Source: Nitrospinia bacterium
GTDB lineage: Bacteria; Nitrospinota; Nitrospinia; Nitrospinales; JAJDAT01
Assembly: GCA_029261715.1 (NCBI GenBank)
Contig: JAJDAT010000040.1
Span: forward strand, 1 to 64,000
Reading direction: 5' to 3'
Length of the DNA stretch: 64,000 nt
Position numbers and translations under genes: made by a program. The notes beneath the pieces are model-generated. The model searched no databases. It was not told the origin of the DNA and saw nothing but the letters and a program-made list of their open reading frames with translations. Below are positions 5,956 through 49,100 of this stretch, one piece after another; within the stretch, counting starts at the first letter, position 1; each line of letters opens with the position of its first letter.

Positions 5956-6231
5956 TTAGTCGTCTGATTTAGAAGGCTTGTCTTTTTTGTCGTCTACCGC
6001 ATAAATCGCTAAAATAAGAGCCAAAATAATAAAGAAAGAAAACCATTTAAACGGCGTGTCCATTTTGAAATCGAAGATGTCATACGTTAAAGTTCCGTCT
6101 ATGGCTATATAAACGAAAGGCAAAACGAGAAGCGCGATTATTTTTTTCCATCGCGCTTTTGCCGGTCTTCGAACAGAATCATTTAAATTGGGCGAGGTCT
6201 CCGATTCCGAAGATTTTTGCCTGTCTTCCAT
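5956..6231 (-). CDS. small membrane protein of unknown function
   Basis: 91 residues: a charged N-terminal tail, then two hydrophobic segments (about 28-46 and 58-79) separated by a short aspartate-rich loop, and a lysine/aspartate-rich C-terminus. It converges with the TPR gene. A CGACTA/TAGTCG hairpin at 5947-5962 spans the stop codon and may serve as a shared weak terminator. No family recognised. Confidence 0.6.
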   Translation of the reverse strand: MEDRQKSSESETSPNLNDSVRRPAKARWKKIIALLVLPFVYIAIDGTLTYDIFDFKMDTPFKWFSFFIILALILAIYAVDDKKDKPSKSDD

Positions 6232-6364
6232 CGTTAATTCCTAAATTAAAAACAGATTATCATTGACGGTTGTCTTATTTGCCCAATATAATTAAAAATC
6301 AAATGGATACCCGCTTTGGGAATCTCTATTAAACAAATTTCTCGTAGACATATCTTAAGCTATT

Positions 6365-7369
6365 ATGGCCATCCCAATTAAACAAGCTCTTAAAGTTGGT
6401 TTTTATATTTTTAAACAAAAAATTTCTGGACGGAAAAAATATCCGCTCGTCTTGATGTTAGAACCACTTTTCAGATGTAATTTAGAGTGTGTGGGATGTG
6501 GCAAAATTCAAAAACCAAATGAAATACTGAAACAAAATCTTTCTCTGGAACAATGCTTTAATGCCGTTGAGGATTGCGGCGCTCCAATCGTTTCTATCGC
6601 TGGGGGAGAACCCCTAATGCATCCAGAAATTGTTGAGATTGTTAAAGGACTAATAGATCGAGGGCGTTACGTTTATCTTTGCACCAACGCTTTATTACTG
6701 GATAAATTTTTTGACAAACTTCCCAAATCGCCCTTGCTCACTCTGTCGATTCATTTAGACGGCAATGAAGAGGAACACGATCGGATAGTAGACAAACCTG
6801 GAACTTATAAAATTGCGGTTGACGCTATTAAGACCGCCAAACGGTTGGGTTTTCGCGTTACCTGCAACACAACTCTTTTTGACGGCGTAAGCATTGAAGA
6901 AGCCGAAAGCTTTTTCGATTCGATAGAGCCCTTGAAGATTGACGGTATCACTGTTTCTTCTGGGTTTCAATATCCTGACGCGCCAGATCAAGATCATTTC
7001 ATGGGAAGAAACAAAACTTTTTCGTATTTTAAAGAATTGTTGTCCAAAAACAAAAATAAACGCTGGGATTTTAACCACTCGCCTCTTTATCTTGAGTTTC
7101 TTCAAGGAAAAAGAGATTACGAATGCACCCCCTGGGGAAACCCGAATTATTCTGTCTTAGGGTGGCAAAAACCTTGTTACCTTTTGGATGAAGGATACAC
7201 AGAAACTTTTGATCAGTTAATGAACGAAACGGATTGGGGAAATTACGGCCACCAAAACAACCCTAAATGCGTCGATTGCACAGCCCATTGCGGATATGAA
7301 GCTACAGCAGCGGAAGATGCCTCAAGTAATTTAAAAAGTATGGCTCTTTCTCTTAAAGCTGTTTTTTAA
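6365..7369 (+). CDS. hpnH: adenosyl-hopene transferase, radical SAM (HpnH)
   Basis: HpnH joins the 5'-deoxyadenosyl group of SAM to diploptene, the first step in making side-chain-extended (C35) hopanoids. The radical-SAM cluster motif CxxxCxxC is at C38, C42 and C45 (FRCNLECVGC), followed by the SAM-binding AGGEPL. The 334-residue length and the extra C-terminal cysteines (CVDCTAHCGYEA) match HpnH rather than other SPASM-type proteins. The opening MAIPIKQALKVGFYI is typical of the family. No squalene-hopene cyclase or other hpn gene lies in the window, so the rest of the pathway must be elsewhere. Confidence 0.9.
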   Translation: MAIPIKQALKVGFYIFKQKISGRKKYPLVLMLEPLFRCNLECVGCGKIQKPNEILKQNLSLEQCFNAVEDCGAPIVSIAGGEPLMHPEIVEIVKGLIDRGRYVYLCTNALLLDKFFDKLPKSPLLTLSIHLDGNEEEHDRIVDKPGTYKIAVDAIKTAKRLGFRVTCNTTLFDGVSIEEAESFFDSIEPLKIDGITVSSGFQYPDAPDQDHFMGRNKTFSYFKELLSKNKNKRWDFNHSPLYLEFLQGKRDYECTPWGNPNYSVLGWQKPCYLLDEGYTETFDQLMNETDWGNYGHQNNPKCVDCTAHCGYEATAAEDASSNLKSMALSLKAVF

Positions 7370-7522
7370 AATTACCGTTCATAAATCGAGAGCCTTAAAC
7401 TTAAATCGTATATTTTTTGCTATTAGCAAGGATTTGACTTTTCTAGCTTGACCAAATTTTTTAAGGCGTTTCTCAACTTCCTTCCTTAAAATTTTTTATT
7501 CAGTTTTACCCCACCCCATCTA

Positions 7523-7966
7523 ATGAATTACTTTTATATTTTTTTAGCCTTACTTGGCGGCGCGATATTACCTTATCAAGCGACGGTTAACGCCAGTCTC
7601 GCCCAGATCTCTGGCAACCCAATATTTGCGGCGATTATCTCTTTCATTGTAGGAACTTTGGCTCTTGTTGTTTTTGGCTTATCTTCCAGCATTCCCTGGC
7701 CTTCTATTTCAAAAATGGCTTTGGTTCCATGGTGGCTTTGGACGGGAGGGTTTTGTGGAGCATTTATTGTTTTCTCCGCTATTGTTGCGGCTCCAAAAAT
7801 TGGAACCGCCGCTTTATTCGCATTTATCATTTGCGGACAAATGGTCGGCTCACTGGTTTTCGATCATTTTGGATGGTTTGGTCTAGCCATTCATCCAATA
7901 AACTGGATGCGAGTAATTGGGGCGACTCTTCTTATCCTTGGCGCCATATTGATTCGAAATTCATAA
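7523..7966 (+). CDS. DMT-superfamily small permease (DUF606/YdcZ-like)
   Basis: 147 residues with four to five hydrophobic helices and almost no soluble part. The start (LLGGAILPYQATVNASLAQ), SFIVGTLAL, and the end (RVIGATLLILGAILI) fit the DUF606/YdcZ branch of the drug/metabolite transporter superfamily, whose members are half-size transporters probably acting as dimers. The substrate cannot be inferred. The gene is monocistronic by spacing. Confidence 0.75.
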   Translation: MNYFYIFLALLGGAILPYQATVNASLAQISGNPIFAAIISFIVGTLALVVFGLSSSIPWPSISKMALVPWWLWTGGFCGAFIVFSAIVAAPKIGTAALFAFIICGQMVGSLVFDHFGWFGLAIHPINWMRVIGATLLILGAILIRNS

Positions 7967-8417
7967 AAAATAGAAAATTCCTCAGCAAAATCCTTCGCCC
8001 CCTCCCGCTAAAACTTTGAACTCATTCCCAAAATCAAGCCGAAAACCATTGAATTTCCGATATTAAAAATATTCATAAATGTGACTTAGATCCTTATTTT
8101 TTAATTAAAAAGATCGTACATTACTGAATAAAGGAGCCTATTGAAAAAATACAAATAAGGGACAATATTAATAAGATAAGAAATAAAGCCAGCGAACTGA
8201 TTTTTTGAATTTCAAGAAACTGCCACTTAAACAGTCTCATAAAATGTTATTTATCCAATTAAATGGTTAATATGAAATTTTAGTTCCAATATTTCGACAA
8301 TCGATGTACAATTAACTAACCTAAAAACAATTGCTTCCAGCTAGTTTTGAGAACTAAACATCTTCTGTTTTATTCTTAATATTAGCGGATAAAAATCTAA
8401 ATTAAAGTTTTCATAAA
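7967..8417. other. AT-rich intergenic region
   Basis: About 450 bp between the permease and the pilin-like gene. Very AT-rich, with frequent stops in all frames. TTTTTTAATTAAAAA at 8097-8111 is a palindrome without further context. I see no RNA gene or repeat. It presumably holds the promoter of the pilin-like gene. Confidence 0.4.
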
Positions 8418-9092
8418 TTGTCTAAGTTACATATAAAAAAATTAAAGAACTTATTTCAACCTCTGAAAAACCAAGAGGGATTCACCTTTTTCGAATTCAT
8501 TATGGTTTGTATCGTAATTGGTTTAGTAGGAGCTATCGCAATGCAGAGAGTTATGTCTGTAGCGGAAGATGCTGAAATAACCTCTGAAGACTCAACTGTT
8601 GGAAATCTCAGGCAAAATATCACCAATATTTTTCTTGAAAATCTTGCCCGAGGAAACGCGCCGCAATACGCTCTAAATCCTTTTGAAAACTTAACGAAAG
8701 TCCCTTGGGGTTATGATCGACGCAGAATTTTCCCTCCTAATGGTCTTAGTATTGACGACGAACTATGGGTTTTTGTTCCTGGGGGAGAGACATCCAGTAC
8801 AAAAACAGCCTCAGGACAAACCATAACCACTGCTGTTGGGACAATTTGGCATCAACGCCGCGACCATACCGTAGTTAATTGGGAGTACGACTCTTCTGGG
8901 GGAATTATTGCGGCTAAAAATATTGTGCAAAAAAGCGATTTAAAATTGCTTGCAGACAATCGTAAAAGGCAGTTAAGACTACGTACCGAAGACGATATTC
9001 GGTTTGGACGAAACGAGTTGGATCTCCTAACTCGTCCACAAGATGCGCCACCTGACGCTTTGAGTGGGTTCCAAAATCCGGGAGACCAATAA
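8418..9092 (+). CDS. type IV pilin-like / pseudopilin protein
   Basis: The N-terminus carries a class III (prepilin) signal: a basic leader, then NQEG|FTFFEF with cleavage after Gly, the conserved Glu at +5, and a hydrophobic stretch of ~20 residues. A prepilin peptidase would process it and it would enter a type IV pilus or type II secretion pseudopilus. The remaining ~180 residues form a soluble head with no family I recognise. The start is TTG (8418), giving a leader of normal length. No other pilus gene is nearby, so this is an orphan pilin. A minor pilin or pseudopilin role is possible. Confidence 0.75.
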   Translation: MSKLHIKKLKNLFQPLKNQEGFTFFEFIMVCIVIGLVGAIAMQRVMSVAEDAEITSEDSTVGNLRQNITNIFLENLARGNAPQYALNPFENLTKVPWGYDRRRIFPPNGLSIDDELWVFVPGGETSSTKTASGQTITTAVGTIWHQRRDHTVVNWEYDSSGGIIAAKNIVQKSDLKLLADNRKRQLRLRTEDDIRFGRNELDLLTRPQDAPPDALSGFQNPGDQ

Positions 9093-9154
9093 TCCAGGGG
9101 ACTGGGGGAATGTGTCTCTCCTAGAAAAACTTTATAGGTTCTGCCTGGCTACCT

Positions 9155-9187
9155 AAAAAAAAAGCGAAGGCCTTAAGCCTTCGCTTT
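9155..9187 (-). terminator. intrinsic terminator of the thi operon
   Basis: AAAGCGAAGGC (9161-9171) and GCCTTCGCTTT (9177-9187) are perfectly complementary with a 5-nt loop. On the minus strand the stem is followed by a run of T residues (9155-9163). It lies just after the thiC stop codon. Confidence 0.9.
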
Positions 9188-9201
9188 AGAAAAGATATTA
9201 A

Positions 9202-11779
<2,578 letters not shown>

Positions 11780-13111: not shown

Positions 13112-14299
13112 ATGAAACCGCTAAAATCTATCTTGCTAGTTATTCTCATTCTCAGCTTTTTTGGTTGTGCTTCGTTGCAAAATCAGGATGGGGAATCTTT
13201 TTCTGGTAGTCCATATTTTGAAGAGCCCCCTGATAAGATTTTATTTTCTGATAAAGAATTGTTTACGCAAGCTCTTAATCTGCAATATAAGGGACAACTC
13301 CAATCGGCAATTCAATTATGGCAAAAGTTTTTGGCCGAACGCTCACAATCTTTTGAAGCGCTTAACAACCTTGGAATGGCTTACTATTCCAACGATCAAT
13401 TAGACTTCTCGATTCAGTCTTTTGAATCTGCTTTAGCCATTCAACCCGATAACGGAAGAATAAAAAGTAACCTAAGCCGAACTTTACGGTTTCGAGTTAC
13501 TTTGGAAAGAGAAAATAGGGAATACGCAAAGGCAGTAGCGGATTTACAAAAAATAATTCCGCTTAGCGGCAAGGATCAACAAGAAAAAATTCTGAGAGAA
13601 ATTGAGAGCGTCCAAGAAAAAATATTTGAAGAAGCTCAAAAGTCAAATACAACAGTGGCGTACGAGCAATTTATAAAAGCATACCCAGATAGCGTTTACT
13701 CCTCAAAAGCAAAAGAAATGCTGAAGTTGCTAAACCCTGCCGCCGCGATGGCAAAAGAAGCTGTAAAAGAATTTTTACCTCCCATTGCCGAAGAAACAAA
13801 ATCAGCCGAAACTCAATTTGAAGAAGCCGCTCCTTTAGTTGAAGAAAAACTTATGGATAATTCCAGCATGATGGAATCTAAAGCTCCAGAAATGAAAATG
13901 GAAGAAGCTCCCATGATGGGCTCTCAAATGTCCGAACCTAAAATGGAAGACTCAGCAATGATGGAAGATCCTGCAATGATGGATTCCAAAATGTCTGACA
14001 TGGATATGGGAACAGATGGGATGGCTATCGATATACCAGAGTCTGAACTGATGGTCGACAAAAGCGATCCCACAATGGACAGGGGATCAGCTTCAAATGT
14101 TCGACAAGTCAAGATAATGACAAAAAGAACTCCATTAAACATTCGAGCCAAACCTTCTTCTAGCGCTCGGGTAATTGGCAAGATTAAAAAAGGCGCCATC
14201 GTAAGACTGATCGAAGAAACTTCGAGGTGGTATCACGTAGCTTATGCCACGGGTAAAACCGGTTGGATTAGTCGTAAATTTTCAAAGGAAGTAAAATAA
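13112..14299 (+). CDS. TPR / SH3-domain lipoprotein with methionine-rich linker
   Basis: The signal peptide ends in a lipobox (LSFFGC, Cys19), so it is probably membrane-anchored in the envelope. TPR-like helices cover about residues 45-145 and continue as a helical region to ~210. Residues ~245-325 are a low-complexity acidic linker rich in methionine, mostly MM or KM followed by E/D, with about 19 Met in 80 residues. The C-terminal ~65 residues are a bacterial SH3 domain (LNIRAKPSSSARVIGKI, GWISRKF), often peptidoglycan-binding. It is first in a four-gene run with gaps of 6 bp or overlaps, although the following genes are metabolic. The function is unknown. Confidence 0.8.
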   Translation: MKPLKSILLVILILSFFGCASLQNQDGESFSGSPYFEEPPDKILFSDKELFTQALNLQYKGQLQSAIQLWQKFLAERSQSFEALNNLGMAYYSNDQLDFSIQSFESALAIQPDNGRIKSNLSRTLRFRVTLERENREYAKAVADLQKIIPLSGKDQQEKILREIESVQEKIFEEAQKSNTTVAYEQFIKAYPDSVYSSKAKEMLKLLNPAAAMAKEAVKEFLPPIAEETKSAETQFEEAAPLVEEKLMDNSSMMESKAPEMKMEEAPMMGSQMSEPKMEDSAMMEDPAMMDSKMSDMDMGTDGMAIDIPESELMVDKSDPTMDRGSASNVRQVKIMTKRTPLNIRAKPSSSARVIGKIKKGAIVRLIEETSRWYHVAYATGKTGWISRKFSKEVK

Positions 14300-14305
14300 C
14301 TTTTC

Positions 14306-15037
14306 ATGACCGTTCGGTCCGAGCTGGCTTCAGCCATCTCCGCTCTACCTTCTAATACAATTCACCAAGAGTTCGTTTCCCAAGACGAATTTTTTGCGAT
14401 GAAAAACTTCATTCCGCAATCTATTGTAGAACGTATCTGCGACGAGTTTGCTAAATTACGACCTAAAATAAATCGCAATTACATTCCCAAACATAAAAAA
14501 GGCGGGAGCGTTAGTCGGTTTACGTTGGAAAAATATTCGCCCACAATTAAGGAAATCTACGAAACGCCAGAATTTTTCGATTTCCTTAACAATCTTGTCG
14601 GCGGAGATCTGCAAGACTGTCCGCCTGAAGATCCGCACGCCTACGCCTTATACTGCTATACCGAACCAGGCGATCATATTGGTTTCCATTATGACACTTC
14701 ATATTACAAAGGTAGACGCTATACGATTTTGATAGGGATTATCGACAATTCAAGCTGTAAGTTAGAATATGATCTTTTTACAAAAAACCCTCAAAAAGAA
14801 ACGACAACACACTCCACTTCACTCGATCCGGGGGATTTAGTATTTTTTAATGGAGACAACCTTTACCACCGTGTTACTCCGCTCGGTGAAGGGGAAGAAC
14901 GCATAGCGCTCACTTTAGAATATGTCACTGACCAATCTATGGGATGGTTTCCACGATTCGTTTCAAATATGAAAGACTCAATTGCTTATTTTGGATTTAA
15001 GAACGTTTTTCTTGGTAAAAAAGGAACGACACAATAA
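14306..15037 (+). CDS. 2-oxoglutarate/Fe(II)-dependent oxygenase family protein
   Basis: The double-stranded beta-helix iron site can be read directly: H128-x-D130 (FHYDTS), distal H188 (LYHRVTP) and R199, which would hold 2-oxoglutarate. The metal triad is complete, with Asp rather than the Gly seen in halogenases, so hydroxylation is the likely chemistry. 243 residues, no signal peptide, cytoplasmic. It overlaps the following nucleotidyltransferase gene by one base and precedes a CDP-alcohol phosphotransferase. It may therefore modify a small headgroup or its precursor; that is inference. The substrate is unknown. Confidence 0.75.
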   Translation: MTVRSELASAISALPSNTIHQEFVSQDEFFAMKNFIPQSIVERICDEFAKLRPKINRNYIPKHKKGGSVSRFTLEKYSPTIKEIYETPEFFDFLNNLVGGDLQDCPPEDPHAYALYCYTEPGDHIGFHYDTSYYKGRRYTILIGIIDNSSCKLEYDLFTKNPQKETTTHSTSLDPGDLVFFNGDNLYHRVTPLGEGEERIALTLEYVTDQSMGWFPRFVSNMKDSIAYFGFKNVFLGKKGTTQ

Positions 15038-15774
15038 TGAGAGCGGTTATTCTTGCGGCTGGAGTGGGTAGACGTTTAGGCGACGAAGGGGATCTCCCTA
15101 AATGTCTTCTTAGGTTTGGTGAGAAAACTTTACTACAAAGACATTTGGAATTTTTGAAACAATGCGGTATCGAAAAGACAACGATTGCTGTCGGGTTTAA
15201 AAAAGAAACTATTCAATCGGAAATCGTCAAATTGGGAATGGATGACTTTGCAAATACGGTTTTCAACCCAGACTTCGAACAAGGAAGCGTACTAAGCCTT
15301 TGGTCAACTCGCGACCAAATGACCTATGGCGGCGATGTTTTATTGATGGATGCAGACGTTCTATACGGTCATTCTTTATTATCTAGACTCGTAGAAACAC
15401 AACATGCAAGTAGTTTCCTGATGGACAAAAATTTCGAACCAGGGGACGAACCGGTAAAACTTTGTATCCGTAATGGAAAAATCGTCGAGTTTCGAAAAAA
15501 AGTCGAAGTGGAATTTGACGTCTGCGGAGAATCCGTAGGATTTTTCAAATTTTCTTCCGATACGGCTAAAAAATTAATTGAAACCACAGAACGGTTTAAA
15601 ACAAATAGAGAAGAATGTTACGAAGAACCTTTAAGAGACTTGGCCCTAAATTCTCCGTCAGATACATTTGGTGTTGAAGATATTACAGGCATGCCTTGGA
15701 CAGAAATTGACTTCCCAGAAGACGTACACAAAGCCCAAGAAAAAATCTTTACACAGTTGGAGTCTGAGCCTTGA
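15037..15774 (+). CDS. sugar/amino-alcohol phosphate nucleotidyltransferase (LicC/PntC-like)
   Basis: Rossmann-type nucleotidyltransferase. LAAGVGRRLG at residues 6-15 is the nucleotide-binding loop, PKCLL carries the conserved lysine, and LLMDADVLYG holds the metal-binding aspartate. Such enzymes activate phosphocholine, phosphoethanolamine, 2-aminoethylphosphonate or inositol phosphate with CTP. The downstream gene is a CDP-alcohol phosphotransferase, joined by a TTGA overlap, which makes a CDP-activated headgroup the best guess. 245 residues, single domain. In PntC the same domain is fused to an aminoethylphosphonate transaminase; here a transaminase of that type lies separately at 48006-49100. 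Confidence 0.75.
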   Translation: MRAVILAAGVGRRLGDEGDLPKCLLRFGEKTLLQRHLEFLKQCGIEKTTIAVGFKKETIQSEIVKLGMDDFANTVFNPDFEQGSVLSLWSTRDQMTYGGDVLLMDADVLYGHSLLSRLVETQHASSFLMDKNFEPGDEPVKLCIRNGKIVEFRKKVEVEFDVCGESVGFFKFSSDTAKKLIETTERFKTNREECYEEPLRDLALNSPSDTFGVEDITGMPWTEIDFPEDVHKAQEKIFTQLESEP

Positions 15775-16358
15775 GTTTGCCTTTGTGGGATGTAAGGATT
15801 GCGCGATGGATGATAAAACCAATTATTGGGACCTCTATCACCCCTAATCATTTAACAACCGTTCGATTAATAGTTGGATTAGTTGGCGTTGCGTTATTTA
15901 TTCCAGGAGATTGGAAATGGTCTGTTTGGGGATCTTTTGGGTTTGCTCTTTCTAATTTAATTGATCACACCGATGGAGAATTAGCCCGCGAAACAGGGCA
16001 AAGCAGCCGTTGGGGACACATTTACGATTTAGCTTGCGACGCTTTAATTCATATCCTCGTGTTTATATGTATCGGCGTTGGATTAAAAAATTCATCATTA
16101 GGTAATTGGGCGATTCCAATGGGAATCGTTGCAGGTTTCTCAGTAAGCGGTATTTTTTGGTTACGTATTAAAATTGAAGAAAAATTGGGCAAAGAGGCTG
16201 TCGCATTGCCTAACTTTGCTGGATTCGACGCGGAAGATATTTTATATTTTTTACCCGTCGTAGTTTTGCTAAATGGATTGGTTCCTTTCTTATTTCTCGC
16301 CGCAACCATTTCTCCCATTGTGGCAATTGCTCTAATAGCAAAATTAAAAATATTTTAA
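15771..16358 (+). CDS. CDP-alcohol phosphatidyltransferase family membrane enzyme
   Basis: The class motif DxxDGxxARx8GxxxDxxxD is complete (starting DHTDGELAR and ending GHIYDLACD, near residues 65-90). It binds the CDP-alcohol and two metals. Five to six membrane helices surround it. 195 residues is the normal size. The start is TTG at 15771, overlapping the stop of the nucleotidyltransferase gene, so the two are coupled: one makes the CDP-activated headgroup and the other would transfer it to a lipid acceptor. Which alcohol or phosphonate is used cannot be read from sequence. Confidence 0.85.
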   Translation: MSLPLWDVRIARWMIKPIIGTSITPNHLTTVRLIVGLVGVALFIPGDWKWSVWGSFGFALSNLIDHTDGELARETGQSSRWGHIYDLACDALIHILVFICIGVGLKNSSLGNWAIPMGIVAGFSVSGIFWLRIKIEEKLGKEAVALPNFAGFDAEDILYFLPVVVLLNGLVPFLFLAATISPIVAIALIAKLKIF

Positions 16359-39311: not shown

Positions 39312-42300
39312 ATGAAGGGATTTAAAACAAAAAAAATATTATTAGTCGTTTTTTTCATCCTTCTTCCGGTAATTTTTTATCCCGGATGGGTTATCGCTAA
39401 TAATATCAATGATAAAGCGATACAAATAGTCTCCAACCCAGGAGAAGACTTTGCCGCCGCTGTTTCGCGCGATGAACAAACCTTGGTTTATGTGTCGGAA
39501 AAATCTGGCAATTTAGATCTCTGGTTAAAAAAATTGGAACCAGCTCCCCCGCCTGATCGACAATTGACTTTCCATAACGCAGGAGATAATTCTCCTGCTA
39601 TTAGTCCCAACGGCGAATGGCTTGCATTTATTTCTAACCGGTCAGATCCAAAAGGGGATCTTTATATCCTTCCTTTAAAATTTGCGGCCCCTCAAAAGGG
39701 AATTGACAACGCTCGCAGGCTAACCGATGGCAAAACCCAAGACAAAAACCCAACCTGGTCGGCTGATGGTAAGTTTATTTATTTCTCCTCTAAAAGCTCT
39801 GGATCATTTGAAACTCAAATCAAAAAAATCGATATCGATACAAAAATTGAAATTGGAATAGATAAAGTTAAAGGACTCAATCCATCTGTCTCGCACGACG
39901 GTCGCTATTTGGCGTTTGTTTCTCGGAAAAGAAACACTAAACCTTCGATTTGGGTCAAAGATTTAAAAACAAACTCTTTGGTTCAAATTACTAAAGGAAC
40001 AGACATCGACGTTTCGCCAAATTGGTCACCCGATGGAAAAGAAATATACTTTGCGCGTTACCGTGACGATACAAACCGCGATAGCGCCGTAACGATTGAA
40101 GATAGACCTAATATATGGTCGGCCTCCTTCCCACCTTCAAAGTTACCTGTTCAATTAACTGATAGCGCTGCATACGACTTATTTCCTCAAGCTTCCAAAA
40201 ATAGTTTGTACATTACTTCCGATCGGAAAAAAGACATAGATATTTGGAAAATTCCACAAAAGGGATTGATACCTTTTCCCAACGATTATGGACAAGCTCT
40301 TCAAATTACGGCAGACCTTTGTCCAAAAACAGACCAAACCTCATATTCTTGTTTAATGGCTTACAACAACCTCATCGCCTTATTTCCTGACGAGGGAGGA
40401 AGTACGCGAAGTAACTATCTAATGGGATTAGGTTATTTGAGTTTGGGTCATGTTGATTATGCTGAAAAAATATTCTCTCGAATTGCCAAAAATAAACAAA
40501 AGAACCCCTTATACAGAGGATTGGCCGAGGTTGAGAACCTTATACTTCAAACAGAAAAATTCAAAACCAAAGGCAGCTCTGCGTACCTGAAAAAAGCAAC
40601 TCAAACCCTAGCCGATTTAAACAACATAAAAATTAAATACAAAGACGAGCGTAGAGTGAACGCTCGGGTCCTTTTAGAAAAAGGAAGAATTCTTTTCAAA
40701 ACTGACGAATTGGATAAAGCCCTTAAATTTTACAAAGAAACTATTAAGAATTATCCGGAACAAAGAACTGTTGCCGCCGAAGCTGCGTTTCTACAAAACG
40801 AGGTGTATCAAACTCTAGGCGACAATCGAAAAGTAATAAACTCATTTATTCAAGTTGTCAGGGATTTTTACGATGTCGAATACTGGACAGACAAAGCGAC
40901 CAGAGAAATTTTTGCTCTTCATGAAGGCCAACCTACTTTTGAAAAAAAAGTCTCTAAGTTGCGGAACCTTTCAATTCAGTACGAAAAATTGCCTCGCCTT
41001 GCCGGCGCTATTCAAAATCGCGTTGGCGAACTCTATAAACAAGCAAACGAAAATCTATTGGCTAAGGAAGCCTACCGAGCCACTGTAGACCGATTTCCAG
41101 ATTCCATTAAAAGTAAAAACGCTGCGTTGTTTGCATTAGCCAATATTTATGCAGAAGAAGAAAATTTTGAACAAAGTTTAAGAGTGTATGAACAAATTGC
41201 CGACGACTCTAAGGATCTAAAAGAGGCGGTTAAAAATTCACGAAAAGGTTATATCCGAAAGTCTATAGCTAAAGGAAAATGGGAACTAAAAGTTGGAGAG
41301 GTAAAACTTGCCGTAAAAACTTTTTTGAATCTGATTCGTTTTTCTCCAGAAACAATCGAAGGACATCGAGGGTTTGTACAAGCAAAAGCCGCTTTGAAGG
41401 GAATAGACGAAACGATCTCGTTTTACAAAAACCGATTGAAAGAAAACCCCGGTTCTGCTCCGGATAGATACGCTCTTGGTCTAACTTATACGTATCTTAA
41501 AAAACCAGATTTAGATACGGCAGAGAAAGAAATTCGCGAAGCTATTCGAACCGACTCTCAACAAATCTATTATCACCAAACTCTGGGCTATGTTTACGAG
41601 CAAATGGAGTCAATTCTAAAACGATCCGATTATTTGGAAAGAGCTTTGCAAGAATACCAAACAGCTCTTTCCCTTGCCGATCCAACCGAAACACCAAGAA
41701 ACGAAGCCGATTTATTATTAAATTTGGGAAATGGAAATTTCCTGCTGAATAATTTTTCTGCGGCATACCGCTATTACAAAAAACGCGAAGAAACGGGATT
41801 AGACTTTTTAAACGAATCGCGAGAAGCAATTTATTTTTCCAGATATGGAGAAAGCGCTTTTAAATCTGGAGAGCCAAAAGAAGCGATAAAAACTCTAAAA
41901 AAATCTTTAAAAATATTTTCGAAGAAAAAAGATCAAACCAGAATGGCTGAGTTGAACGATCGCATAGCCTTAGCATACCAAGATGTAGAAAATTACTCTG
42001 AAGCGGTAAACCATTTCGCTGAAGCAATGGAAATTAATCGAGCTTCAGGAAATACTTCTTCTCTTTCACGTTCTCTTCGTAATATCGCAAACAACCTCTT
42101 TTGGCTAAATAAAAAAGAAAAAACTAAAAAGTCTGGACAATTAACGCAAGCTCTAAATAATTATTTTGAAGCGATAGAAAAAATCGAAAAATTTGGAGTT
42201 ATCCAAAAAAAGAAAAGTCAATCAGGTCTATTGAACATTCAGATCGAAACGCCTCTAGATCAAAACGCTTCAGCTGCCGCTTCTGGCTTCGATACAGTAG

Positions 42301-45300
42301 GAGAACAAAAATTAATTTTTCATTACGTAGGAAAAATATACGGAGATTTCAAAGAATACGGGCGCGCCACAGAATATTTCGAGAAAAAATTGGCCCTGAT
42401 TCCCGATAAATTGGATATTGAAAAAAATGTACCCGTTTTATTAGAAAAAGCTTTGCTGCAAAACCAAATCGGCAATTTCAACTATCTTAAAGGAGATTAC
42501 GAAGCCGCCGGTCGCTATTTCAAAAACTCGTATCAATTAAGCAAATCTTTAAAAAATAGACATGGAACGGCTGTAAACGCGGCTAATCTAGGTAAATTGC
42601 TGTTGGCTAAATTAGAAAATCGACCAACGGCTCAACCTTCTCAAGAAATAGAAAATACGATATCGTTACTCACAGAAACCTCTAAATGGCTCACCGAATT
42701 CAAGGAGTATTCAAACCCCGAGTATCAAGCCTATCTGCAAAATTATATTGGAATTTTTAAATACTACAAAACTTTTCAATTATCTAGTACGACAAAGACG
42801 ACAAATGAAAAAGACGACAACCTGTCTTTCCTCTCAAGTCTTAACGATTTAAAGAATGACGCCGACAACCTTAGTTTAGCGGCTCAAAACTTTAAAGAGG
42901 CCATTAAAAATCTTGAAGCGGCAAAAGACATTCCACAAAAAAAAGAAATGCTTGCGGCTCTGAAGCAAAATTTAAAATTATCCAACAACTTTGAAACTTC
43001 CGAAAAAAAAGCGAATTCCAATACTGTTCCTACTGACCCTGCATTTTCAATACGATGGCAGCATCGCTACTTAAAAGCCTTACGGGCAGCATCCTCGAAA
43101 GAAAAATTAAATTTACTTTTAGAATCTGAAAAACTCTTTTCAAAGATTCCATATGGATTTTCTCCTCTTAAAGACGATGGAATAACCATGCTGGCCCAGC
43201 TTTATCGGGATATCACGGCGGCCTACTTTGAAGATAAGCGATTTGCTGAAGCATTATTTTTCTCTGAAAAAGGCAGTCGACAATTGGCCATCGCCAACCA
43301 ACAAGTTTTTCCAATAAAATTTTCCGGCGAAAATCGGCAGATGTATTGGGACGAATTAATGACATTTTCTGACCGCTTAAGAAAAGCGGTTGAAGGGACT
43401 TCTGAAGAAGATGCGAAATCCATTTTAGAGGAACAAGAAGAATTTTTAACTCTCGTTAAAGAAGACGACAAAGAACTAGCCGCGCTCTATAGCCCCTATA
43501 TTCCAGATATAGACGAAATTCGTAGCGCAATGAAAAAAGAAGGGGCTATTCTAAAATATGAATGGATTGGCGATAAAATATTTATCTGGGTTATAAACTC
43601 AAAAATTATAAGAGCTGGGGCAGTCACCGCCACTTCCGAATTGACCAGGGTTATTTCACAATATGCAGCCAACCCAAAAAACTATTCCCGCTCAGATATT
43701 GAACTACTAAGCAAGGCGTTAACTCAGCCTATCAAAGATTTTGTCAAAAACTCAAAAGCTTTATACATACTGGCAAATGGACCTCTAGAGTATTTACCGT
43801 GGCCAGCTATGAAAATAAACGCTAAGCCCATAGTTGAAACGATTCCAATAACCTATATATCTTCGTTTTCTCATTTAATATTTTCTAAAGAAAAACGAAA
43901 TTTATACAACGCCCGCTTACTAAATATAGGAAATTCATTCGAAACAATGGAAGGTTTGGAAAGTAGTTTTTCTACTATTAAAAATCTAAACAGTCGAACT
44001 AAAGAAATTGACGCCTTCTCTAAATTACGAAGAAATTTTGGATTAATAAATATTGAAAATAGAACTGTTTTAAATGGACGAAAACTATGGGACTCATATA
44101 TTGGAATTTCTGATAACCCTAGAAGATTTGACCGATGGCGACCTGAAGAGCTTTTTGAAGAATCGTTATCTGGTCATTTAATTGCCCTTCAAAATATTCA
44201 ATCAGATTACGAACGAGGGAACAATTTATCGCCTTCTGTTTTTTTAACAGAAGCTTTAACATTTGCCGGATTTCCGGGAATACTACTAAATTGGACTCAA
44301 AACGGATTAATTATCCAAAAAAGTTTATTCAAATCCTTTCTAAAAAAAGTCCGTAATGGAAACCCTTCTGAAGCTTTACGTTTGGCTCAATTAGAAACCG
44401 CAAAAAAATTTCCAGATTCCTTAGATTGGGCGGGATATCGATTTTATGGTTTTCCTGGAATGGAAGAAGACGAAAAAAAGGAATTTGCAAAAACTAATTT
44501 TGATACAAACGTTCAAAAAGGTCTTCAAGCTTTTAAACAAAAAGAGTGGGATGGCTCAATCGGGTATTTTGAAAAAGCCCTCGCTCTTATTTCATTTTTA
44601 GAAAATAAAGACTCAGAAAATCAGATTCGCAAAACTCTCGCTCTCGCCGCTTACAATCAAGGCGATTATCAAAAAGCCATTCAATACCAAAAAGGATTAG
44701 TCAAAATGATGGAGCTTCGGGAAGACCCCGAGCTTTTAGCTGAATCGATCTATTTTTTAGGAATATTACATTCCCGAGCCGAAAACTACGGAGAAGCCGT
44801 TAAGCTTTTACAAAAATCTTTAAACATTTATAAGGAAAACGAAATCCTTGATAAATTAGCGGAAAGCTATAGCGCTTTAGGTATTATCGAAGAAAACGCA
44901 TTGGATTACGACAAAGCCCTTCAGGCTTTCAGTTCATCTTTAAAGATCAGTGAAGAGATTGGCGAAGATTTAAATCGAGGCCGCGAATTAAGAAGAATTG
45001 GGCGAATTTTTTATCTTAGATTGAGTCGCTACAATCAAGCAAAAGCGTATTTCCAACAAGCTTACGATCTATTTAAGGAAATCGACCAATTAGACCAAGT
45101 AGTCGAATCTCTTTTGGAATTGGGTTTAGTTGCCGAAAAACAAGGCGACTTTGACGTTGCCTTAAATCGCTATCAGGAAGCTCAAAATCTAGCAAAAGAA
45201 ATAGATATGAAACCAGGCTTATCTAAAGCGTTTTTATATCAAGCAAATAGTCATTGGTTTCAGGGAAATTATCAGAAAGCGTTTAAGTTCCAGAGAAAAG

Positions 45301-47330
45301 CTTTGGCTATTGCAGAAGAGATTACCGATAAACGTCAAAAAACATTTGTATATAACACGCTGGGTTTAATTTATTGGACTCTTAACAACTCTTCGCAAGC
45401 CCTGGGAAATCTAAATAAAAGTCTTAAACTTGCTGAGGAAATCGAATCGCCATTAGATATTGCGACGGCATATAACAATATTGGTTTGGTGTATCGCAAA
45501 GACAAAAAATATGAAAAATCGATAGAATTTTTTCAAAAAGCGCTAAAAAAAGACGAAGAATTAAAATCAAAATGGGGTCAGGGATATACTCATAGAAATT
45601 TAGGTATGAGTTATCTGCGTTTGGAGCAACTAGATTCCGCATCAACCCATATTCAAAAAGCCGTTGCCTTAAGCCGTGAGATTGGTAATCAAACCAACCT
45701 GGTTAAGTCTATGTTGGAAATGGGAAACCTTGCCATGAAACGGAAAAACTGTTCTAAAGCTATATCCGCTTTCAAAGAAACAGAAGCATTGGCCGGAAAA
45801 CTAAAAATTTCTGAAGTTCATTGGAGGGCTCTTAGAGGACAAGGAAAATGCCTTGCTATGAATGGAAAATTAAACTCAGCAACTGAAGCTTACAAAAAAG
45901 CCACCGAAATCGTAGAAGATATGCGAGCGGCTATCAAAATTGAAGAATTCCAAAATGGCTTTCTAACCGATAAACAAGACGTATTTAAAGAACTCGTTTT
46001 ACTTCTTCTCGACCAAAACAAAACTGCGGAAGCTTTTTCCTATGCGGAGAAGGCGAAATCTAGAAGTTTTATTGATTTACTGGGAAACCAAAAAGTAAGC
46101 CTCAAAAACGATGTAAGCCAAAAACTTTACGATTCGCTAACAAAGCAAAAAAACCAAATCAGAAAAATAGAAGAAACTTTAGGGAAAACAGAAGAGGAAG
46201 ATAAAAGAAACCAACTGCTAAAAGACTTAGTAGCCGCTAGGAATAACTATCAAGAAATTTTGATAAAGGTTAAAGAACAAAGCCCTCAGTTGTCGAGCTT
46301 TGTTACGGTAGAAACTCTCAACATTTCAGAAATTCAAAAGTTATTAGAACCTAAAGTAGCTCTAATAGAATATTTAGCGACTCCAAAGGAATTAGTTATT
46401 TGGGTTGTTTCTCAAAATAGTTTACAAGTCACAAGAGTTCCCATAGAAGAAAAAGAATTAGAGAAGCTAGTAAATGATTATCGAAGTCGGATGCAAAGCT
46501 TAGCTCCATTGGAAGAGCAAACAGGAAAACTTTACGACATCACTATTAAACCTATCGAACCATGGATCGAAACCCAAAAAACACTCGGGATTATACCTAA
46601 CGGAGTTCTCCATTATATTTCTTTTTCTTCATTGAGAGGACCTAATGGTTACTTGTTTGAAAAACATCCCCTATTTTATGCTCCAAGCGCATCCGTTTTA
46701 AAATTTACCTTTGGAAGAAAATACGAGAAAAAATCTGGCCCGGTCAAAGTACTCGCTTTAGGCAACCCGGATTTAGGCAGCTTAAATTATGATTTACCGC
46801 TGGCGGAATTGGAAGCCAACGCCATTAAATGGGATTTTCCAAAAATTGACGTGTTAACCCGAGAAAAAGCCACAGAAAGTTGGCTCAAAAAACACATTAG
46901 CGAATATCAAATTATCCATATCGCATCGCATGGAGAATTCGATCCCATCAATCCTTTGTTTTCTTCTTTAAAGCTAACTCGCGATCAATCAGAAGATGGA
47001 AACTTTGAAGTTAATGAAGTGTTCTCTCTCGATATTAAAGCCGACTTAGTTACTTTAAGCGCCTGTCAAACTGGTCTTGGAAAAATTGAAGGGGGCGACG
47101 AATTAATGGGTCTTAATCGAGCGTTCTTTTATGCCGGAACTCACGCTCTTATTTCGTCGCTGTGGCGGGTAAGTGATATTTCTACAGCTATTTTAATCAA
47201 ACATTTCTATCGAAACTACGCAACCAACTTAAAAGCTGAAAGTTTAAGAAAAGCTCAATTGTTGGTTAAACAATCTTACCCACATCCAGCTTATTGGTCG
47301 GCTTTCAGCTTAACTGGGGACTATCGGTAA
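39312..47330 (+). CDS. giant exported propeller-TPR-CHAT-TPR-CHAT protein
   Basis: 2672 residues. A hydrophobic signal at ~8-30, then PD40/TolB-type propeller repeats (~35-330; PTWSADGKFIYFSS, PNWSPDGKEIYFARY). First TPR array ~335-1330. First CHAT-like domain ~1400-1725: the fold's landmarks are there (ILKYEWIGDKIFIWVI; GPLEYLPWPAM; EALRLAQLETAKKFP) but the HxxSHG and SACxTG motifs are absent. Second TPR array ~1750-2260, then a complete CHAT domain ~2330-2672 with His2540 (IASHGEF) and Cys2585 (LSACQTGLG), the caspase-type dyad, and the end YWSAFSLTGDYR. CHAT proteases cut a partner when their TPR part senses a signal. Location outside the cytoplasm and the target are inference. A GGAG ribosome site lies rather far (~12 nt) from the ATG. 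Read divergently from nuoN. Confidence 0.9.
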   Translation: MKGFKTKKILLVVFFILLPVIFYPGWVIANNINDKAIQIVSNPGEDFAAAVSRDEQTLVYVSEKSGNLDLWLKKLEPAPPPDRQLTFHNAGDNSPAISPNGEWLAFISNRSDPKGDLYILPLKFAAPQKGIDNARRLTDGKTQDKNPTWSADGKFIYFSSKSSGSFETQIKKIDIDTKIEIGIDKVKGLNPSVSHDGRYLAFVSRKRNTKPSIWVKDLKTNSLVQITKGTDIDVSPNWSPDGKEIYFARYRDDTNRDSAVTIEDRPNIWSASFPPSKLPVQLTDSAAYDLFPQASKNSLYITSDRKKDIDIWKIPQKGLIPFPNDYGQALQITADLCPKTDQTSYSCLMAYNNLIALFPDEGGSTRSNYLMGLGYLSLGHVDYAEKIFSRIAKNKQKNPLYRGLAEVENLILQTEKFKTKGSSAYLKKATQTLADLNNIKIKYKDERRVNARVLLEKGRILFKTDELDKALKFYKETIKNYPEQRTVAAEAAFLQNEVYQTLGDNRKVINSFIQVVRDFYDVEYWTDKATREIFALHEGQPTFEKKVSKLRNLSIQYEKLPRLAGAIQNRVGELYKQANENLLAKEAYRATVDRFPDSIKSKNAALFALANIYAEEENFEQSLRVYEQIADDSKDLKEAVKNSRKGYIRKSIAKGKWELKVGEVKLAVKTFLNLIRFSPETIEGHRGFVQAKAALKGIDETISFYKNRLKENPGSAPDRYALGLTYTYLKKPDLDTAEKEIREAIRTDSQQIYYHQTLGYVYEQMESILKRSDYLERALQEYQTALSLADPTETPRNEADLLLNLGNGNFLLNNFSAAYRYYKKREETGLDFLNESREAIYFSRYGESAFKSGEPKEAIKTLKKSLKIFSKKKDQTRMAELNDRIALAYQDVENYSEAVNHFAEAMEINRASGNTSSLSRSLRNIANNLFWLNKKEKTKKSGQLTQALNNYFEAIEKIEKFGVIQKKKSQSGLLNIQIETPLDQNASAAASGFDTVGEQKLIFHYVGKIYGDFKEYGRATEYFEKKLALIPDKLDIEKNVPVLLEKALLQNQIGNFNYLKGDYEAAGRYFKNSYQLSKSLKNRHGTAVNAANLGKLLLAKLENRPTAQPSQEIENTISLLTETSKWLTEFKEYSNPEYQAYLQNYIGIFKYYKTFQLSSTTKTTNEKDDNLSFLSSLNDLKNDADNLSLAAQNFKEAIKNLEAAKDIPQKKEMLAALKQNLKLSNNFETSEKKANSNTVPTDPAFSIRWQHRYLKALRAASSKEKLNLLLESEKLFSKIPYGFSPLKDDGITMLAQLYRDITAAYFEDKRFAEALFFSEKGSRQLAIANQQVFPIKFSGENRQMYWDELMTFSDRLRKAVEGTSEEDAKSILEEQEEFLTLVKEDDKELAALYSPYIPDIDEIRSAMKKEGAILKYEWIGDKIFIWVINSKIIRAGAVTATSELTRVISQYAANPKNYSRSDIELLSKALTQPIKDFVKNSKALYILANGPLEYLPWPAMKINAKPIVETIPITYISSFSHLIFSKEKRNLYNARLLNIGNSFETMEGLESSFSTIKNLNSRTKEIDAFSKLRRNFGLINIENRTVLNGRKLWDSYIGISDNPRRFDRWRPEELFEESLSGHLIALQNIQSDYERGNNLSPSVFLTEALTFAGFPGILLNWTQNGLIIQKSLFKSFLKKVRNGNPSEALRLAQLETAKKFPDSLDWAGYRFYGFPGMEEDEKKEFAKTNFDTNVQKGLQAFKQKEWDGSIGYFEKALALISFLENKDSENQIRKTLALAAYNQGDYQKAIQYQKGLVKMMELREDPELLAESIYFLGILHSRAENYGEAVKLLQKSLNIYKENEILDKLAESYSALGIIEENALDYDKALQAFSSSLKISEEIGEDLNRGRELRRIGRIFYLRLSRYNQAKAYFQQAYDLFKEIDQLDQVVESLLELGLVAEKQGDFDVALNRYQEAQNLAKEIDMKPGLSKAFLYQANSHWFQGNYQKAFKFQRKALAIAEEITDKRQKTFVYNTLGLIYWTLNNSSQALGNLNKSLKLAEEIESPLDIATAYNNIGLVYRKDKKYEKSIEFFQKALKKDEELKSKWGQGYTHRNLGMSYLRLEQLDSASTHIQKAVALSREIGNQTNLVKSMLEMGNLAMKRKNCSKAISAFKETEALAGKLKISEVHWRALRGQGKCLAMNGKLNSATEAYKKATEIVEDMRAAIKIEEFQNGFLTDKQDVFKELVLLLLDQNKTAEAFSYAEKAKSRSFIDLLGNQKVSLKNDVSQKLYDSLTKQKNQIRKIEETLGKTEEEDKRNQLLKDLVAARNNYQEILIKVKEQSPQLSSFVTVETLNISEIQKLLEPKVALIEYLATPKELVIWVVSQNSLQVTRVPIEEKELEKLVNDYRSRMQSLAPLEEQTGKLYDITIKPIEPWIETQKTLGIIPNGVLHYISFSSLRGPNGYLFEKHPLFYAPSASVLKFTFGRKYEKKSGPVKVLALGNPDLGSLNYDLPLAELEANAIKWDFPKIDVLTREKATESWLKKHISEYQIIHIASHGEFDPINPLFSSLKLTRDQSEDGNFEVNEVFSLDIKADLVTLSACQTGLGKIEGGDELMGLNRAFFYAGTHALISSLWRVSDISTAILIKHFYRNYATNLKAESLRKAQLLVKQSYPHPAYWSAFSLTGDYR

Positions 47331-48005: not shown

Positions 48006-49100
48006 TTATTTAGCTTGAATAGAAAGACAATTTCCCAGTTCTGTCAAAAGCTCTTGAAATTCTTCTTGCCGGATATCCCCAATATTTGCAATTCGAAATA
48101 TAGTTTTACTCAAGTTACCTTGGCCAGCATAAATTACAAAGCCTCTTTCTTTCAAATCATCGTGTAATTTTGTATAAGTTACCCCGTTAGGTAACTTTAG
48201 AGAAGTTAAGGTGTTGGAATAATTTTCAAGCGGCAATAAGAATTCCAAATTCAAACTCTGAAAACCTTGTCTTAAAAAATTTGCAGCTTTACCATATCTC
48301 CTAACTCTACCAGCCACAGTTTCATCCTTCAATTCTTCTAAGGCTTCATCTAAAGCATAATGGACTTGTATAGCGGGAGTAAACAAAGTATTTCCTTTAT
48401 CCTGAGCTTTAACGTGAGCGGGTAAATCAAAATAAAGGGACCTCGGAGAGATTTTTTCAATTCGAGGTAAATCGTCCTTTTTCATGAGGACGAAGGAGAC
48501 TCCCGGAAAACCTTGAACGCATTTATTTGCCGTTCCAACACATATTTCTGGTTGCCAAAGACTAAAGTCTAGTTCGTCGCCGCCTAGAGAGCTGATACAA
48601 TCGACCAACAGGACTCTTTCATGCCGATGGACAATTTCCGCAATAGCTCCTAGAGGATTTAACAACCCCGTTGTCGTTTCATGATGGACGACCATGACAA
48701 CTTCAATTTTTGGATCATTTTTTAAGGCGTTATCAATTTCATCCAGTTGAGGTAAATCACCCCAAGTATATTCAAGAACTTTTGTTTCCAAACCATAGCA
48801 CTGCGCTATCTTAGCGATTCGTTCGCCATAAATACCATTATTTATAACGAGAGCTTTTCTATCAGAACTAACGCTTGCCGAAACCGCCATTTCCAATGCA
48901 GCTGTTCCAGAGCCAGAAACTAGAGCGGAAGTATAATTTTTTTCAATATCAAAAACCTTTACGAGTTTTTCACGAATAGAAGCTATCAAATCGGTGCATT
49001 CTTTTTCGCGATGACACAAGTCTCCTCTTAGCAGAGCGGATTCTACTCGCTTTGTTACGTTCACAGGTCCAGGGTTTAATAAAACGACTCTTTTTTGCAT
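48006..49100 (-). CDS. PLP aminotransferase, 2-aminoethylphosphonate transaminase-like
   Basis: 364 residues, fold type I, class V. LLNPGPVNVT, DLCHREKE, SGSGTAALE, VVHHETTTGLLNP and GTANKCVQGFPG are close to the PhnW/PntC transaminase pattern. K193 would hold the pyridoxal phosphate and D167 (VDCISS) the ring nitrogen. PhnW-type enzymes interconvert 2-aminoethylphosphonate and phosphonoacetaldehyde; related enzymes are serine/alanine-glyoxylate transaminases, so the substrate is not certain. The LicC/PntC-like cytidylyltransferase and CDP-alcohol enzyme at 15-16 kb make a phosphonate-headgroup pathway thinkable. Confidence 0.8.
   Translation of the reverse strand: MQKRVVLLNPGPVNVTKRVESALLRGDLCHREKECTDLIASIREKLVKVFDIEKNYTSALVSGSGTAALEMAVSASVSSDRKALVINNGIYGERIAKIAQCYGLETKVLEYTWGDLPQLDEIDNALKNDPKIEVVMVVHHETTTGLLNPLGAIAEIVHRHERVLLVDCISSLGGDELDFSLWQPEICVGTANKCVQGFPGVSFVLMKKDDLPRIEKISPRSLYFDLPAHVKAQDKGNTLFTPAIQVHYALDEALEELKDETVAGRVRRYGKAANFLRQGFQSLNLEFLLPLENYSNTLTSLKLPNGVTYTKLHDDLKERGFVIYAGQGNLSKTIFRIANIGDIRQEEFQELLTELGNCLSIQAK

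Follow-up and report, generated by a model that had tools for sequence, protein, structure and literature searches.

A putative operon for a phosphonate lipid headgroup, possibly carried on hopanoids, in a Nitrospinales-related bacterium

We analyzed the first 64 kb of contig C40 (hereafter the window) in the 5.33-Mb, 52-contig genome of a Nitrospinales-related bacterium (G000), focusing on a trio of genes at 14306-16358 that encodes an oxygenase, a nucleotidyltransferase, and a membrane phosphotransferase. These genes, with two others in the window that bear on their function, are as follows.

14306..15037, + strand: 2-oxoglutarate (2OG)-Fe(II) oxygenase, 243 aa; BesD/HalD/HalB fold; triad H128-x-D130...H188 plus R199
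15037..15774, + strand: PntC-like cytidylyltransferase, 245 aa; from sequence and predicted structure, a probable cytidine triphosphate (CTP):(hydroxy)aminoethylphosphonate cytidylyltransferase
15771..16358, + strand: small CDP-alcohol phosphotransferase, 195 aa; TTG start; motif DHTDGELARETGQSSRWGHIYDLACD intact
48006..49100, - strand: AepZ/PhnW-type 2-aminoethylphosphonate (AEP) transaminase; TIGR03301 match
6365..7369, + strand: HpnH adenosyl-hopene transferase; 503 bits, cut-off 225.05

The junction letters show that the oxygenase gene overlaps the nucleotidyltransferase gene by 1 bp, which in turn overlaps the phosphotransferase gene by 4 bp. Pfam assigns the three families, in agreement with a preliminary description of this DNA that had recognized the same three enzyme types in genes overlapping by 1-4 bp. 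Gene order, families, catalytic residues, the presence of AEP genes, and conserved clusters are read directly from sequence or model.

The strongest support for a phosphonate function comes, on gene content, from orthologous clusters in Nitrococcus and a gammaproteobacterial metagenome-assembled genome (MAG) that include all of the AEP genes. We examined oxygenase loci in named genomes, using the best 80 of 159 confirmed relatives, with some loci shortened by contig ends. The relatives are mostly from Nitrospira, and also from Rokubacteria, Nitrococcus mobilis, Nitrospina MSP, Symploca, a verrucomicrobial MAG, and two proteobacterial MAGs. Ten of the 80 loci contain a homolog of the nucleotidyltransferase (L041, L043, L048, L049, L051, L064, L065, L075, L105, and L118), eight a CDP-alcohol phosphotransferase, and seven the phosphoenolpyruvate (PEP) mutase PepM. 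In Nitrococcus mobilis (L041) and the gammaproteobacterial MAG (L118), the full set falls within 7-8 kb: CDP-alcohol phosphotransferase, an HpnL-like membrane protein on the other strand, oxygenase, nucleotidyltransferase, a PepM-nucleotidyltransferase fusion, phosphonopyruvate decarboxylase (Ppd), and AEP transaminase. Locus L105 keeps this order as far as its contig end, and L048 retains PepM-nucleotidyltransferase, oxygenase, and nucleotidyltransferase. Nitrospira moscoviensis (L130) and a Nitrospira MAG (L138) have a PepM-like-nucleotidyltransferase, split Ppd, transaminase, nucleotidyltransferase, CDP-alcohol phosphotransferase, and HpnL-like protein, with the oxygenase encoded elsewhere in the genome. 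Partial versions of the cluster occur in Rokubacteria and Nitrospirota. A PepM-nucleotidyltransferase match (E <= 1e-50) was found in 47 of 50 oxygenase-bearing genomes searched, which represent 50 of the 80 loci and include some positives cut by contig ends; no match at this threshold was found in G064, G090, and G099.

The window nucleotidyltransferase belongs to Pfam NTP_transf_3 (47.1 bits), and its predicted structure (predicted local distance difference test, pLDDT, 91.0) is closest to PntC, with the inositol and choline enzymes ranking behind it, in line with its earlier labeling as LicC/PntC-like. Foldseek placed PntC first (E 4.7e-20, template-modeling score 0.87), VIA-align gave Z 30.7 for PntC (root-mean-square deviation 1.8, 236 aligned), 26.2 for IPCT-DIPPS, and 25.7 for LicC, and profile comparison gave 97.7, 74.8, and 67.8 bits for PntC, LicC, and IPCT, respectively. 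PntC of Treponema denticola (PntC-AEPT, 6PD1/6PD2; Rice et al. 2019, PMC6697681) forms cytidine monophosphate (CMP)-AEP, and its E104 and E196 lie near the AEP amine, where LicC has Asp. The two enzymes share the full-length fold at 23-24% identity. In the window enzyme E196 is retained and the E104 site is D105, so that the active-site alignment proposed in the preliminary description gave a mixed answer, with one PntC-like Glu and one LicC-like Asp; both residues are invariant among the aligned cluster nucleotidyltransferases. The GxG(T/S)RX4-8PK motif reads GVGRRLGDEGDLPK, which retains the spacing, the R, and the PK but has R where T/S is expected (GVGRR instead of GxG(T/S)R). In its relatives, the window enzyme, like PntC, is associated with an AEP transaminase and PepM; unlike PntC, it has its own gene with no transaminase fusion.

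In a tree of 38 nucleotidyltransferases, which took in 9 of 19 fetched relative loci, the window sequence groups with those of L041, L105, and L118 (99/99), and all cluster nucleotidyltransferases form one clade (86/86) separate from the others of the order; PntC and IPCT are on long branches, and their placement is unsure. The top match in the 60 order relatives (the order set comprises 61 genomes including G000) has 35% identity; neither it nor the eight other nucleotidyltransferases of relatives in the tree belong to the cluster clade. The PepM-fused domains form a second clade together with a nucleotidyltransferase from contig C16 of G000 (100/99). The domain fused to PepM in G000 is missing the GxGxR loop and reads AGEDEIL, which may explain the use of a separate nucleotidyltransferase. 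A plain inositol or phosphocholine headgroup was down-weighted on the tree, structure, and profile results.

Judging from its genes, G000 can make AEP by the chemistry established for these families, from PEP through phosphonopyruvate and phosphonoacetaldehyde. The preliminary description had proposed a search for pepM and a phosphonopyruvate decarboxylase; pepM is present, as is a candidate decarboxylase. PepM is encoded at C5:72289-74013 with a C-terminal nucleotidyltransferase domain; it scores 352.8 bits against TIGR02320 PEP_mutase (cut-off 319.55) and carries the motif EDKVFPKRNS (canonical EDKxxxxxNS), which is conserved in all 20 PepM copies fetched from the order, its own included. 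The decarboxylase candidate is a pair of adjacent, overlapping genes at C49:63660-64650 rather than one chain, with 119.0 and 204.0 bits against TIGR03297, whose cut-off of 312.5 is for the one-chain form. A gene broken into two frames was rejected as an explanation, as the N. moscoviensis and L138 clusters carry the same two-gene form, with which the two C49 genes share 44% and 47-52% identity. The beta half favors phosphonopyruvate over sulfopyruvate decarboxylase (204.0 vs. 188.3). The AEP-transaminase-like gene noted earlier at 48006 is indeed there, at 360.5 bits to TIGR03301 PhnW-AepZ (cut-off 360.8) and with AEP transaminases as its best PDB relatives; since it lies ~32 kb from the trio on the opposite strand, it is not part of the operon. 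The preliminary description would have given up its phosphonolipid idea had pepM been absent and the active site been of the choline- or inositol-specific type; with pepM found and PntC closest, the idea is supported.

Across the order set, PepM-nucleotidyltransferase is found in 51 of 61 genomes (E <= 1e-150) and the transaminase in 48, including G000 (E <= 1e-80). At E <= 1e-50, two genomes (G000 and G003) have the oxygenase, and seven weaker matches lie between 3e-6 and 1e-3. With the AEP genes widespread, the oxygenase rare, and the relatives' nucleotidyltransferases in the tree outside the cluster clade, AEP synthesis would be an old trait of the order, to which the trio was added later.

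The phosphotransferase matches CDP-OH_P_transf (PF01066, 58.1 bits) and has an intact D-x2-D-G-x2-A-R-x8-G-x3-D-x3-D, the catalytic motif of CDP-alcohol phosphotransferases. It is 42-45% identical to the L041, L105, and L118 copies. In Nitrospira and Rokubacteria, the copies are longer or were taken from long open reading frames, and the N-terminal part of the two that were scanned gave no Pfam match. The window enzyme is a probable transferase of CMP-activated phosphonate to a lipid alcohol. A second set in G000, at 6231-10555 of locus L035 (G000:C16:304000-321000), comprises a CDP-alcohol phosphotransferase in which the strict motif was not found, a nucleotidyltransferase that groups with the PepM-fused domains, and an iron alcohol dehydrogenase (best NCBIfam match the phosphonate-associated TIGR03405, 287.6 bits, cut-off 423.7); from its gene content, this set could make a hydroxyethylphosphonate branch.

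The oxygenase matches the HalD family in Pfam (53.3 bits, cut-off 26) and falls just below the cut-off of 27 for 2OG-FeII_Oxy_3 (24.6 bits). Among solved folds, its predicted structure (pLDDT 92.1) comes closest to HalB, HalD, and a BesD-like hydroxylase (Z 22.7-23.8). As these structures hold lysine or ornithine as ligands, a small primary amine, AEP or CMP-AEP, is a fair guess for the substrate. The window oxygenase shares fold (Z 21.9-23.8) and size with the BesD/HalD/HalB halogenases, which act on free amino acids, and with the BesD-like lysine hydroxylase (7JSD), but differs in its full hydroxylase-type triad, 16-22% identity, and own set of conserved residues. In halogenases of this kind, H-x-G/A replaces H-x-D and makes room for chloride; HalD and BesD read HWG at this site in our alignment. 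H128, D130, H188, and R199 are invariant in all 81 aligned oxygenase sequences, so the enzyme should hydroxylate, and the halogenase reading was rejected. From sequence and model, it probably hydroxylates a small amine, for example AEP or CMP-AEP. PhnY*-type oxygenases, which are AEP hydroxylases, do not appear among the structural matches listed, which is evidence neither way. In Nitrospina MSP (L042, 7998-9910), a glycosyltransferase gene directly follows the oxygenase, in the place of the nucleotidyltransferase, so the oxygenase may act in conjugates of more than one type.

Altogether, we consider that activation, hydroxylation, and transfer of a phosphonate headgroup onto a lipid is the best explanation of the trio and a likely one. 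PEP mutase, phosphonopyruvate decarboxylase, and the transaminase, all encoded elsewhere in the genome, would convert PEP to AEP, which the operon nucleotidyltransferase would join to CMP. The oxygenase would hydroxylate the small amine, as AEP or CMP-AEP, probably to hydroxy-AEP, and the membrane CDP-alcohol phosphotransferase would then transfer the phosphonate from CMP to a lipid hydroxyl. Each substrate, the acceptor, and whether hydroxylation comes before or after activation are our inferences. The part we hold with the most confidence, with good odds, is that (hydroxy)AEP is CMP-activated and placed on a lipid as a phosphonate headgroup; for hydroxylation of this headgroup by the oxygenase, the chances are about even. 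A hopanoid acceptor falls slightly short of that. Somewhat more tentative is a new membrane-lipid class, hopanoids capped with AEP or hydroxylated AEP in Nitrococcus, Nitrospira, Rokubacteria, and this Nitrospinales-related bacterium, with the window operon as its module.

A hopanoid is the likeliest acceptor because of neighboring genes in other phyla. In L118, a run of genes for a squalene-synthase-family protein (best TIGR01559 at 123.1 bits, HpnD at 67.3, both below cut-off), HpnG, HpnN (778.5 bits, cut-off 751.85), the CDP-alcohol phosphotransferase, and HpnA (463.4, cut-off 367.65) continues across the divergent HpnL-like gene into oxygenase-nucleotidyltransferase-PepM-Ppd-transaminase, then DXS and HpnH (553.7, cut-off 225.05); HpnG and DXS were named by eye, not by profile. 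In L118, the called phosphotransferase reading frame shares 8 coding bases with hpnN, and in both gammaproteobacterial MAGs (L118 and L105) the gene lies inside the hpn run, between hpnN and hpnA. HpnR (896.9 bits, cut-off 650) adjoins the Nitrococcus L041 cluster. Four Rokubacteria (L181-L184), counted as one lineage because they are related, have homologs of squalene-hopene cyclase (SHC), HpnH, and HpnA on the same contig within ~12 kb of oxygenase, phosphotransferase, and nucleotidyltransferase genes, with HpnA and HpnH assigned by homology. By gene neighborhood, three lineages thus tie the set to hopanoids. The cluster membrane protein has the HpnL model as its best match, always below the cut-off of 195.65 (L041 154.4, L118 145.1, L138 160.2). 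In the window, HpnH, which starts the synthesis of the extended hopanoid side chain, is encoded ~7 kb upstream of the trio in a separate transcription unit. SHC occurs in 17 of 18 oxygenase genomes. Elsewhere, a 322-aa protein like the SHC C-terminal domain, an NTP transferase, and a HAD hydrolase lie in a row at 460-2994 of L017, and such pairs recur in many relatives across the order.

Several findings weigh against the phosphonate-hopanoid reading or parts of it, and some of them feed alternatives. The same phosphonate chemistry could have as its acceptor a glycan carrier lipid or, in a Kennedy-type phosphonolipid, diacylglycerol, with the hopanoid neighbors merely marking a lipid gene island. 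Among the solved relatives of the phosphotransferase are choline/ethanolamine phosphotransferases, whose lipid substrate is diacylglycerol, and the hopanoid tie is not close in N. moscoviensis, where the cluster is ~120 kb from SHC, or in G000, where SHC is on contig C49. Within the order set, SHC is near-universal (58 of 61 genomes, three of them, G038, G043, and G054, weakly) and the oxygenase is in only two, so co-occurrence says little, and we gave it no weight there as proof of a hopanoid link. The position of the phosphotransferase gene within the hpn runs of L118 and L105, and the two further lineages with the cluster beside hopanoid genes, count against such an acceptor, which we regard as having perhaps one chance in three.

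At about the same level we place the possibility that the oxygenase acts on some other small amine or amino acid and is merely co-transcribed, leaving the headgroup untouched. In the stretches examined, 70 of the 80 oxygenase loci have no nucleotidyltransferase, CDP-alcohol phosphotransferase, PepM, Ppd, or transaminase; the N. moscoviensis gene adjoins ftsK and lolA; and the fold comes closest to lysine/ornithine halogenases and a lysine hydroxylase. On the other side, the oxygenase gene lies directly beside the nucleotidyltransferase gene in the window, the gammaproteobacterial clusters, and L048, and nearly all of the oxygenase-bearing genomes searched have PepM-nucleotidyltransferase, as given above.

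Beside these partnerless loci, the weakest points of the phosphonate-headgroup reading concern PepM. Two Rokubacteria with the cluster, G064 and G090, show no PepM-nucleotidyltransferase, and three of the 12 copies aligned (those from the L130, L138, and L064 clusters) read EDN...CS rather than EDK...NS; L130 and L064 score 275.1 and 272.4 bits, below the PEP-mutase cut-off. These EDN...CS proteins (L130 7786-9462, L138 9368-11131, and L064 11970-13973), which occur in otherwise rather complete AEP clusters, either catalyze another reaction or are an unrecognized type of PEP mutase. In G000, the AEP genes are scattered and none adjoins the trio, PepM has its own nucleotidyltransferase domain, so a second is on its face not needed, and the C49 alpha half scores higher as a sulfopyruvate decarboxylase (132.7 vs. 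119.0).

An IPCT/DIPPS-like pair, in which CTP activates inositol-1-phosphate or another polyol phosphate for a phosphodiester lipid or solute with no phosphonate, is very improbable: the nucleotidyltransferase has its best NCBIfam match, at 82.5 bits (cut-off 580), in the bifunctional inositol-1-phosphate cytidylyltransferase/DIPP synthase, which the phosphotransferase also matches weakly, and AF2299 is the closest PDB sequence to the phosphotransferase, but structure and profile rank PntC first, and pepM, ppd, and AEP transaminase genes are in the orthologous clusters. Like AF2299/IPCT-DIPPS, the trio pairs a cytidylyltransferase with a CDP-alcohol phosphotransferase with an intact catalytic motif; it differs in having two separate genes, with AEP and hopanoid genes as neighbors in its relatives.

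Bacterial phosphonate capacity is thought mostly to decorate cell surfaces. PntC-type activation and PepM-nucleotidyltransferase fusions are already known from PMC6697681, which also calls the tailoring steps after C-P bond formation enigmatic; the G000 fusion has the PEP-mutase motif, a nucleotidyltransferase domain without the GxGxR loop, and a place in a clade other than that of the operon enzyme. For these tailoring steps, the clusters supply candidates for the transferase, the hydroxylase, and the acceptor. In the open-access literature we found no report of the oxygenase-nucleotidyltransferase-phosphotransferase set or, with subscription journals mostly outside the search, of phosphonate-bearing hopanoids. 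The nearest is a terpene-phosphonate suggested for Acetobacteraceae from linkage of pepM to terpenoid genes (PMC8776678), a predicted product in other taxa; in contrast to the clusters here, the available part of that paper names no hopanoid acceptor, oxygenase, or CDP-alcohol phosphotransferase. The word hopanoid is absent from two marine phosphonate papers (PMC8931226 and PMC9381506). If nitrite oxidizers do carry phosphonate headgroups on hopanoids, these would connect the nitrogen cycle and the hopane fossil record with the phosphonate pool of sea and soil, and cultures of Nitrococcus mobilis and Nitrospira moscoviensis could be searched for such a lipid marker right away.

One further gene directly precedes the trio.

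13112..14299, + strand: TPR and C-terminal SH3 lipoprotein-like gene, 395 aa (Pfam); outside the conserved set

The preliminary description had the operon span 13112-16358; the coupled trio holds for 14306-16358, and the start at 13112 belongs to this gene. The oxygenase start is 6 bases past its end, and from this arrangement it is probably the first gene of the trio's transcript. A scan for promoters and terminators was uninformative (five promoter-like sites vs. 7.7 expected; four terminator-like sites vs. 3.1 expected). Upstream of the trio are thiamine genes in the opposite direction, named from sequence by eye, and on the 3' side a gene for a CBS-GGDEF protein follows after a 164-base gap. 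Farther along the window, a single 2672-aa open reading frame at 39312-47330 adjoins the transaminase gene.

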